From positions 42,153 through 106,152 of the IMG/VR virus record IMGVR_UViG_3300043777_000086: a stretch of DNA of 64,000 nucleotides; one strand, 5' to 3'. The translations under genes and the position numbers were made by a program. Every line of letters begins with the position of its first letter. Positions within the stretch are counted from its first letter, which is position 1. Below the pieces are notes generated by a model. The model did no database searches and had not been told where the DNA came from. It worked only from the letters and a program-made list of their open reading frames with translations. The stretch comes from a virus. Positions 5,556 to 44,206 of this stretch are shown in pieces.

Positions 5556-5869
5556 GGCTTAGTGACAGCCGGCGGGACTGTAGGGCAATTCCAGGTCTTG
5601 TCTTTGTTGACATGACATCCGGGACCGGCCCCATATTCCTTTATGAGCGTATTCTCGTAATCGACCCAGATCTTTTCTTCTTTTTGAGCCTCTTCGCGAG
5701 CCGCCACAAGGCGCAACTGGGCCTGCTGAAGCTCTAACTCCGCGCTCTGTACCGCCAGCATCTTCCTGGAGATTTCCTCATAGCGCTTCTCTGGGATAGG
5801 CGTAGGGGTGGTCGTAGGGGCAGCCTTATCATCCAGAAACATACAGATCGCCGCAACGAATAAAATCAC
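5552..5869 (-). CDS. Small membrane-anchored coiled-coil protein (spanin-like?)
   Basis: 105 residues: an N-terminal hydrophobic segment (ILFVAAICMFL), a Pro/Thr linker, then a charged coiled coil (residues about 28-75, SAELELQQAQLRLVAAREEAQ) and a short Cys-containing tail. This plan resembles inner-membrane spanins or other virion/lysis coiled-coil proteins, but no family motif proves it. The GTG start has GAGGTGA four bases upstream. It follows the fibre gene closely, and its stop codon overlaps the convergent stop of the plus-strand gene. Confidence 0.6.
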   Translation of the reverse strand: MILFVAAICMFLDDKAAPTTTPTPIPEKRYEEISRKMLAVQSAELELQQAQLRLVAAREEAQKEEKIWVDYENTLIKEYGAGPGCHVNKDKTWNCPTVPPAVTKP

Positions 5870-5879
5870 TAGGTCACCT

Positions 5880-7265
5880 CTAGCAATGCGTTATGATTCC
5901 GTCAGAGCTTGCGAACAAGGAGGTCGGGGTTCCTGTACAGGTAACTCCCGCTACTCCGCCGATTGTCATCCCCGTGGGCGTGAAGTTCCAGATTAGGGAC
6001 CCAAACCCAGAGGTGTAAACCTGTAAGGCAATTGTGGATTGCGTACCATTAGGCCCCATGTCCGCGATAGCAGCGCCGGAACCATTGAATATTTCCACCG
6101 CCCCTCCCGACCCTGAGAAACTTATCTCTACCTGGTTGGTGCCCGCATTCTGCATGAAAATTCCGGTGGAGTTCGCAACCACCATATTCTGACCGGATGA
6201 GTTATTCAGGATCAACTGTCCCGCGCCCGCTCCACTAGGGGTAATAGAAGCTAGTTCGATACTAAATCCTGAATTCCACAACTCTAGGTCGGTGCTGGAT
6301 TGAACTCCGGTAGAGGCACCCATAGATGACTTAGCCGCCCCAGTGTTGTCGAAAACTATTAATCGACCTCCCACGCCGGCTGTGAATGTGCCTTCGATCT
6401 GATTTACGCTGGTGTTTTGAACAAAGAATCCAGAGGAGTTAGCTATAAACGTATTACTTGCTACGTCTAAATCCACAGCTACATCGAGCTGATGAGCCGG
6501 GTTAGTGGTTCCAATTCCCACGAGACCTCCGGAGGTGATCCTCATCTTCTCGATGTTATTACCACCACTCAGGGCAGTAGCGAAGATAAGAGTTCCAGAA
6601 TAGTCTCCCGCTATAGAGTTCTCCTTATACCCCCAAATTTCGGCGGAATCCGCAAACGACCCGGTGCCTACGTAATCAAACCCGAGAGAGATATGCCCAC
6701 CAATTCCAGTCGCATGAGTTGAGGAACTATCCCGGATGACTGCCTGGCCGATGTTGGCAGAGCTTATACCCTGTACAGTTAGAACACCTATGGGGGCTAC
6801 TCCGATTCCCACCTTACCGCCGAAGAAGTCGAAATTAAAGGCATTGGTATTGAATGTCATATCGCCGGCGTTTGAATCATCTATAGACCACACAGTACCG
6901 CCAGTGGGATTCTCTAGGCGAATTCCATTCGACGCATTCAGAACATTATCCTGTAAGACCAACCCAGGTTCCGTGGGACCCGGAGAAAGAACAATGACCG
7001 AAGACAGGTGAGCGCCGCTTACATTTCCAGGACTCAGTACGATCGATCCATTACTGGACGAACGACCGGTGATTACTGAGGCGTTATTGCCGGATATCCC
7101 AAGGTCCATATAGGTTGCGCAGGAAGGGGTCTCATCACAGATCCGCAATTCTCCAGGGGCTGGCCCAGTCGGAACGGCTAGGATTTTTACCGGAGAGGAT
7201 AGGCTTATCTGTGCGTGAGCGCACGAAGCCAGCGCTAGAATGGAAAGAACTAATGCGTATATCAT
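5880..7265 (-). CDS. Tail-fibre-like protein with Sec signal peptide
   Basis: 461 residues. Residues 1-19 form a clear Sec signal (MIYALVLSILALASCAHAQ). The body is a low-complexity, Gly/Ser/Asn/Thr-rich beta protein with motifs of trimeric phage fibres: FFGGKVGIGVAPIGVLTVQG and EKMRITSGGLVGIGTTNPAH, as found ahead of S74-type chaperone domains, although no C-terminal chaperone is evident. The ATG has AGGGG four bases upstream. A cleavable export signal is odd for a cytoplasmically assembled fibre, and the same feature recurs in several other genes here. Confidence 0.75.
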   Translation of the reverse strand: MIYALVLSILALASCAHAQISLSSPVKILAVPTGPAPGELRICDETPSCATYMDLGISGNNASVITGRSSSNGSIVLSPGNVSGAHLSSVIVLSPGPTEPGLVLQDNVLNASNGIRLENPTGGTVWSIDDSNAGDMTFNTNAFNFDFFGGKVGIGVAPIGVLTVQGISSANIGQAVIRDSSSTHATGIGGHISLGFDYVGTGSFADSAEIWGYKENSIAGDYSGTLIFATALSGGNNIEKMRITSGGLVGIGTTNPAHQLDVAVDLDVASNTFIANSSGFFVQNTSVNQIEGTFTAGVGGRLIVFDNTGAAKSSMGASTGVQSSTDLELWNSGFSIELASITPSGAGAGQLILNNSSGQNMVVANSTGIFMQNAGTNQVEISFSGSGGAVEIFNGSGAAIADMGPNGTQSTIALQVYTSGFGSLIWNFTPTGMTIGGVAGVTCTGTPTSLFASSDGIITHC

Positions 7266-43558: not shown

Positions 43559-43846
43559 CTAGTCGGCTCCGCTTTTGCTGACTACGCCCTTAGCTTGGTT
43601 GGCGAACGGCCAGGTGGCTCCGCCGCGCCGTAGTTCGACTTCATCCGCGCCGCCCATTTGGACCGGTCCTTTGTTGCCGGGGTCCGAATACGGAGGCTTG
43701 ATTTCCGATTCGTTGGTGTCGATGTAATCGGCGCCAGCGTATTGGAGTGGGCCACCAGACCGCTTCTGTGAATCCTCCGGTCGCAGGGGGCTGCTACCCA
43801 GATCGATTTCATCACTCGAGCTTTGAATGGTGCCTTTGTATGCCAT
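43559..43846 (-). CDS. Small hypothetical protein of the capsid operon
   Basis: About 95 residues from ATG 43846 (MAYKGTIQSSSDEIDLGSSP); an upstream in-frame GTG at 43933 is an alternative, but neither has a convincing ribosome site. The frame contains two similar phrases, GGPLQYAGADYIDT and KGPVQMGGADEVEL, suggesting a short internal duplication, and ends in QAKGVVSKSGAD. Function unknown; possibly a minor virion protein. Confidence 0.6.
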   Translation of the reverse strand: MAYKGTIQSSSDEIDLGSSPLRPEDSQKRSGGPLQYAGADYIDTNESEIKPPYSDPGNKGPVQMGGADEVELRRGGATWPFANQAKGVVSKSGAD

Positions 43847-43942
43847 GAGGGTTACAACCTGGAATGCGGCGGGGTTGGATACGCGCAGGGCTCGTCCGTC
43901 GCTGTCCGAGCCCTGGCGTGGTTGCGGGATCACCGCATCAGA

Positions 43943-43993
43943 CTACTTGCGGTGCTTTTTGCGCCGGTTGGCGATGGGGCCGAAACTGTTCAT
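43943..43993 (-). CDS. Micro-ORF 1: 16-residue basic peptide
   Basis: MNSFGPIANRRKKHRK. It is preceded by a GGAAGGGTGATACGCA leader. The second micro-ORF at 44064-44123 has nearly the same leader and the same SFGPxAxRRKK core, so the unit is a tandem duplication that kept its coding sequence. It would be a very basic RNA- or DNA-binding peptide in the capsid operon, or a leader peptide. Confidence 0.55.
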   Translation of the reverse strand: MNSFGPIANRRKKHRK

Positions 43994-44063
43994 TGCGTAT
44001 CACCCTTCCTTTCTCGCGACCGACAACGCCAGGCCGCGTAATTTCAACAAGATCGATGTGGCG

Positions 44064-44123
44064 CTACCGCATCTTCTTTTCGCGCTTTTTGCGCCGGTCG
44101 GCCGTTGGTCCGAAGGAAAACAT
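44064..44123 (-). CDS. Micro-ORF 2: 19-residue basic peptide (paralogue)
   Basis: MFSFGPTADRRKKREKKMR; an in-frame ATG four codons earlier (MDTQ) is an alternative start. It shares SFGPxAxRRKK and a GGATACGCAG-type leader with micro-ORF 1, 70 bases downstream. It begins about 47 bases after the predicted capsid-operon start site and is the first translated unit of that transcript. Confidence 0.55.
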   Translation of the reverse strand: MFSFGPTADRRKKREKKMR

Positions 44124-44176
44124 CTGCGTATCCATCCTTTCCTGGCCCGACTACGCCAGGGCCTTTATTTCACATA

Positions 44177-44206
44177 AGAGTAATACGGAATTTGACGTAG
44201 CGTCAA
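44177..44206 (-). promoter_or_regulatory. Promoter of the capsid operon
   Basis: Minus strand: TTGACG (44201-44206), 18 bases, TACTCT (44177-44182). The -35 is also one arm of a TTGACG/CGTCAA inverted repeat with a 3-base loop, which may be an operator. Transcription would pass through both micro-ORFs, scaffold and capsid to the terminator at 40051-40081. Confidence 0.55.

Follow-up and report, generated by a model that had tools for sequence, protein, structure and literature searches.

Short, strongly basic peptide genes and neighboring RNA structures in the portal-to-head gap of a tailed phage and its relatives

The window analyzed here (the whole stretch of 64,000 nucleotides) is part of a 106,152-base viral contig, and it raises the question of whether two very short, basic reading frames upstream of the capsid genes are genuine genes and what their peptides might do. 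On the minus strand, the genes between 35.8 and 50.7 kb encode a terminase, a portal protein and, following a gap, a small repeat protein and a 120-aa protein (the two small head-operon genes just downstream of the gap), a scaffold-like protein and the major capsid protein. The gap spans 396 bases between the stop codon of the portal gene (44243) and the likely start of the gene that follows (ATG 43846), as given in the preliminary description, and its placement of the frames upstream of the capsid genes is borne out, since both lie on the minus strand within this portal-to-head gap. Micro-ORF A (44064..44123, minus strand) encodes MFSFGPTADRRKKREKKMR, 19 aa plus stop, and micro-ORF B (43943..43993, minus strand) encodes MNSFGPIANRRKKHRK, 16 aa plus stop, with a near-identical peptide in the related loci L020 and L100. 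The small repeat protein that follows (43559..43846, minus strand, likely start ATG 43846) has a counterpart after the micro-ORFs in relatives; its short repeats are KGTFQAGGADSVELG-like in the window group and VGDxxxL-like in others.

The two frames had been described as tandem duplicates. The duplication is real and larger than was claimed, comprising a unit of ~100 bases made up of a hairpin, a Shine-Dalgarno sequence and an ORF; the two copies of the unit align with a score of 76, whereas none of 1000 shuffles exceeded 35. Both ORFs carry AG-rich Shine-Dalgarno sequences (GAAAGGATGG and GAAAGGAAGGG), with the Shine-Dalgarno-like AAAGGA of A at 44135..44140 and the Shine-Dalgarno-like AAGGAAGGG of B at 44003..44011, both on the minus strand. 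The hairpin loop reads TGGCGTaGTC or TGGCGTtGTC in the two unit copies.

A promoter-like sequence, consisting of TTGACG and an A/T-rich -10 region, is located at 44177..44206 (minus strand). The -35-like TTGACG is found 83 bases upstream of A, and the earlier assertion that the micro-ORFs lie directly below the capsid promoter is plausible on this basis. Among 20 loci, 12 have a TTGAC in the 150 bases that precede the first micro-ORF, compared to 2.7 expected, a pattern that would fit a promoter upstream of the first micro-ORF. If promoters are located at the TTGAC sites, the micropeptides would be the first genes of the head transcript.

Related contigs contain one to three short ORFs of 12–36 aa, with K+R of ~50%, in the corresponding portal-to-head gap. 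Two close contigs were recovered by capsid and portal searches: L003/L020 encodes MLSFGPIANRRKKHRK with MTTFNETANRGKKMSRKAMKMEARKGKRK upstream of it, and L002/L033 encodes MLSFGKVANRKRHKKARG. Beyond these two, a search of the viral collection with the pattern MxSFGxxANR returned chance matches only; the MKSFGLVANRR matches in L008/L009 run antisense to a helicase-like gene and were rejected as chance. Further loci were gathered with portal and capsid profiles, and nearly all of these contain, in the portal-capsid interval, one to three short ORFs in which lysine, arginine, glycine and alanine make up most of the residues (among them METANRRKKGGRKKSARTHVR in L021; MARRRRRGKKAR, MARRGRRRGRKHR and MANPRQLARKGKKRMSKRCY in L025; MARHKKGRKKSRK plus MAKRKGKGRGKKTRVSGPSYTRM in L036; MARRGKKGRKHGRK in L063; and MARHKAARKAARKAARKAARKAAR in L052). 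The further, distant lineage L100 encodes MNSFGPIAERRKKGRGRHRK, in which MNSFGPIA[N/E]RRKK recurs, and this peptide joins those of the window to the wider set. Three peptide types were distinguished within one head operon: mu1, mu2 ending in YRR, and mu3 with HxxLKRDxRR. The third basic type, with an HxxLKRDxRR-like end, was observed immediately before the scaffold gene at L072:3808-3918, L107:34-135 and L047:758-859. In L052 (1242-1316), compared to L050 and L051, the micropeptide is lengthened by repeated AARK units with near-identical codons, an apparent sign of recent repeat expansion with charge kept.

An isolated phage of Acidobacteriota, Tunturiibacter phage Tunturi_1, likewise has an unannotated 22-aa basic ORF (MAKESKKEMKKEELKKKKSGKK) and an annotated 43-aa one in the corresponding gap; it is the nearest cultured phage found, but only distant kin (terminase 25%, no capsid match) and its peptides are alike in charge alone. 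As a separate observation, HNH-type endonuclease-like ORFs are present between the portal and micropeptide genes at L002:3624-4067 and L036:9553-10332, and the corresponding spot in Tunturi_1 holds an annotated HNH gene.

Frames this short may arise by chance, and A and B could be fortuitous reading frames within a leader, without any translated function. Their very small size and the lack of any family match speak for such an origin: Pfam returned 0 matches for 10 related longer peptides even with an E cutoff of 10 (at 16 and 19 aa, the peptides of the window are too short to scan), and in PHROGs the best hit, for 1 of 10 related peptides, had an E of 0.49, which is chance level. Occurrence was therefore counted using a search rule of an ATG, a ribosome-binding site, 8–45 aa and a net positive charge of at least one third of residues; this rule was set after the peptides had been seen, and the controls carry the argument. 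In the portal-to-capsid gaps of 23 loci, among which L050–L052 are near copies, the coding strand gave 26 matches and the other strand none, compared to 3 in 219 kb outside the gaps; once shuffled, the gaps gave 0.03 per locus. At least three of the 26 gap matches are spurious (that in L028 and the second in L053 lie inside other genes, and that in L017 is in a different frame from the likely gene), and the strict rule missed real cases (A in the window, L039 and Tunturi). The contrast between the gaps and elsewhere is independent of the spurious and missed matches. When the rule was relaxed slightly, the window yielded just one further basic micro-ORF, an Arg-rich frame that lies within a different gene (40515-40477). 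Scans covering almost the whole of the window's phage and of three 95–101 kb relatives found Lys-rich micro-ORFs only in the portal-to-head gap. A few Arg-rich frames occur elsewhere in the three 95–101 kb contigs, and the Arg-rich MEKSRGIRGLPERAGGKRGRKRGRSRRY (G002 88007-88093) is perhaps real.

Codon changes were compared between the two copies and between relatives, and they are mainly synonymous. Window B and L020 B differ at 8 bases, resulting in five synonymous codons and one amino-acid change, where 5.4 amino-acid changes are expected at random and 0 of 4000 simulations were as low. L100 and window B differ by eight synonymous and one changed codon (6.5 changes expected), window A and B over 13 codons by three synonymous and three changed (6.6 expected, P 0.005), and the second peptide type in L063 and L056 by nine synonymous and three changed (9.6 expected). 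The simulation was a simple one without codon bias, and the effect is large. The preliminary description named lack of conservation of the frames in related phages as evidence against it; frames, charge and position were instead found to be kept in relatives. Its proposal of real, very basic peptides is thus strongly supported by this conservation together with the synonymous bias. Enrichment in the gap, conservation of position and synonymous bias contradict a chance origin, which is hardly tenable, and indicate that A and B are almost certainly real, peptide-constrained genes.

With regard to function, the composition of the peptides is informative. K+R account for 50% of residues and D+E for 2.7%, hydrophobic residues are almost absent, and charge is retained as the sequence drifts (MARRGKKGRKHGRK, MARKKARHAKRK, MARHKAARKAARKAARKAARKAAR). 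The near-absence of hydrophobics argues against action on membranes, and a membrane-active or antimicrobial peptide was ruled out on this ground. Half lysine or arginine, rare acidic and near-absent hydrophobic residues, and a charge that outlasts the sequence form a signature of non-specific nucleic-acid binding; combined with the position in the head operon, this makes DNA handling during head assembly the best guess, and we hold DNA binding in head assembly as the main role with middling confidence. In the proposed scheme, A and B would be the first genes, or close to the first, on the transcript of a tailed phage's head genes, both would be translated from Shine-Dalgarno sites of their own, and the peptides would be made in large amount alongside the scaffold and capsid proteins. 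They would most likely bind nucleic acid through charge, and may coat or condense phage DNA, or neutralize DNA at the inner head surface, during head assembly and filling, a role that would resemble those of microvirus J protein (PMC13386984) and adenovirus Mu (PMC7998265). High expression, DNA binding, presence in the head and autoregulation are what we infer for these peptides. In peptides of the window type, the conserved SFGPIA start points to a specific contact in addition, perhaps one made with the capsid or scaffold protein.

Conserved RNA structure adjoins these genes. In a sister clade, an H-type pseudoknot begins 5 nt after the stop of the first micropeptide and is followed by a second conserved micropeptide, MA[RK][RK]KGRKK...YRR, which mostly has no ribosome-binding site. 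A free fold search returned a pseudoknot of near-equal geometry in 7 of 8 lineages, with loop 1 of 6–9 nt, loop 2 of 4–6 nt and loop 3 of 15–17 nt; L050 also has these stems, but a single C-A mismatch let a different fold score higher. In the comparison of all eight lineages, both sides change in 10 of 14 pairs and standard pairs are formed in 110 of 112 cells, the stems having been segmented by hand and their order checked by script. The covarying pseudoknot was located at L063:2898-2960 and L056:2236-2297 and in L054, L053, L048, L050, L101, L100 and L121. An RNA-pattern search of the whole viral collection returned 16 stretches, all 16 with a second micropeptide gene after the pseudoknot (a different basic one in L115), and the first micropeptide precedes the pseudoknot in every stretch whose contig extends that far; in the L056 type (L109, L113, L123) this first peptide is MAHRKSRNKKTRK. 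Within the viral collection, the pseudoknot was found only beside these micropeptide genes, and Rfam returned no match for the pseudoknot or the leader. The conserved pseudoknot shows what is predicted to be RNA-level control of the micropeptide locus in the sister clade. Readthrough or frameshifting at the pseudoknot was considered and rejected, as the post-stop frame is unconserved between L063, L056 and L053 (compared by eye).

The window has no match to the class-I pseudoknot pattern; other folds flank its micro-ORFs. A GGCCC/GGGCC hairpin precedes A (44126..44163, minus strand), and its loop GCGTA may pair with TACGC just before the ATG (p 0.13 alone), a possible pseudoknot that is suggestive only. 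The homologous hairpin before B (43991..44038, minus strand) has a possible loop pairing with the start-codon region (p 0.17 alone), again suggestive only. Changes in L020 match the loop pairings (GCGTA/TACGC, GCGT/ACGC, GTGT/ACAC), each alone not significant. After B, a GC-rich hairpin (CAGGGCTCG/CGAGCCCTG; 43886..43915, minus strand) is the counterpart of the L020 pseudoknot: L020 and L043 have significant pseudoknots of near-equal geometry after the last micro-ORF, and in the window the first stem is kept and the second forms 6 of 7 pairs by eye. Plain terminators were rejected as an explanation for the hairpins, few of which have a T run after them, and most single flanks fold about like shuffles. 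Taken as they stand, the RNA structures suggest tuned or coupled translation. Under the proposed scheme, those beside the micro-ORFs would probably set the output of each peptide and of the following head gene, and an attractive option is that this control would operate via peptide binding to its own mRNA, by analogy with T4 gp32.

The same structures lend weight to two other readings. The peptides could be arginine-rich RNA-binding regulators that bind hairpins or pseudoknots in their own leader or in late transcripts and control translation or transcription termination in the head operon, in the manner of lambda N with boxB or of T4 gp32 with its own pseudoknot; short arginine/lysine-rich peptides do adjoin conserved RNA structure, a covarying pseudoknot lies between two micropeptide genes in the sister clade, RNA folds lie beside the window copies, and gp32 provides a precedent (PMC535899). 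However, the sequence of the basic part drifts while its charge stays, unlike a specific RNA-recognition motif, up to three copies of three types are present, and the RNA structures of the window are non-significant alone, and we regard this regulator as somewhat unlikely. Alternatively, translation of the micro-ORF to its stop could open or shift the RNA and so set expression of the next gene, the peptide itself otherwise having no job. The sister-clade pseudoknot beginning 5 nt past a micro-ORF stop, before a gene mostly without a Shine-Dalgarno sequence, and the apparent position of the micro-ORFs as first ORFs of the transcript are consistent with such a switch. Against it, selection acts on the amino acids and their charge (though charge itself may cause stalling), the other two micropeptides share the basic character and are encoded elsewhere in the operon, and the C-terminal ends are unconserved, unlike a stalling motif; such a switch appears distinctly improbable. 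The retention of charge with sequence drift, the several copies and the three peptide types favor a working peptide over a pure leader.

A peptide acting on the host, by binding ribosomes, RNA polymerase or the nucleoid to aid late takeover, would suit the small size, charge and predicted strong translation, but the genes sit at the head genes and not among early takeover genes, and we give this reading very little credence.

The J protein of phiX174 is a small, highly basic protein whose gene immediately precedes capsid gene F. The peptides described here are similarly very basic and encoded close upstream of a capsid gene, although with three larger genes between. The arginine-rich motif system N/boxB of phage lambda likewise combines a short, basic stretch of peptide with neighboring GC-rich hairpins inside an operon, but the N motif is the beginning of a larger protein. 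Microvirus J protein (phiX174 J; VP8 of gokushoviruses) binds DNA as a protein of the head (PMC13386984, PMC11945456); microviruses have ssDNA and a capsid of unrelated type, whereas the present case is a tailed phage with one to three predicted peptides of 12–36 aa. Adenovirus core protein Mu (pX) was compared for its DNA-handling role (PMC7998265); Mu is cleaved from a 79-aa precursor in an animal virus, and homology is not claimed. T4 gp32 is a phage nucleic-acid-binding protein with a pseudoknot in its own mRNA (PMC535899), but gp32 is a large ssDNA-binding protein, whereas here the pseudoknot follows an ORF of 12–20 aa and peptide binding is hypothetical.

The distribution of the genes among relatives is uneven. 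No micropeptide ORF was detected in L066–L071, L106 or L028, though homologous head genes are present (for L066–L071, L068 and L070 were examined closely and the others by scan). L068, L070 and L106, all without micropeptide ORFs, group together as a single clade with support in the tree of capsid proteins; the existence of such sister phages implies that the micropeptides are not essential to the head type in general. Among bacterial genomes, a first capsid query gave no match and a second gave one short contig, from a Candidatus Sulfotelmatobacter MAG, containing a third-type micropeptide adjoining the scaffold gene. This contig and Tunturi_1 hint, weakly, at Acidobacteriota as hosts. Independently of the micropeptides, group I introns were observed just upstream of the capsid coding match at L063:5476-5702 and 5765-5972 and at L056:4842-5068, where they probably interrupt the capsid gene close to its 5' end, and the capsid gene of L023 (9697-11390) is interrupted by a LAGLIDADG homing endonuclease-like ORF (MTLSLEYIAGFADADGSIG), probably also an intron.

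No description of such genes was found in the open-access literature. Gene finders usually skip ORFs so short, and whole families of phage peptides can in this way stay unseen. In tailed phages, dsDNA is normally driven into the head by a terminase motor with no such peptides involved, which speaks against the proposed role in the head. We tentatively propose, with rather less than even confidence, a clade of tailed phages, probably of Acidobacteriota, with its own protamine-like peptides of 12–36 residues in two or three types, which would be co-packaged with the genome or act on it, under the control of an undescribed family of pseudoknots between the micropeptide genes. The conserved RNA structures could instead be a regulatory layer that is the main point of the locus. 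The covarying pseudoknot without an Rfam match would offer a compact system in which models of translation control can be tested, in phages from a soil phylum that has received little study. If the peptides do bind DNA inside the head, the use of small basic peptides on the genome would extend from microviruses and adenoviruses to tailed phages, which would bear on how the charge and pressure of packaged DNA are managed.
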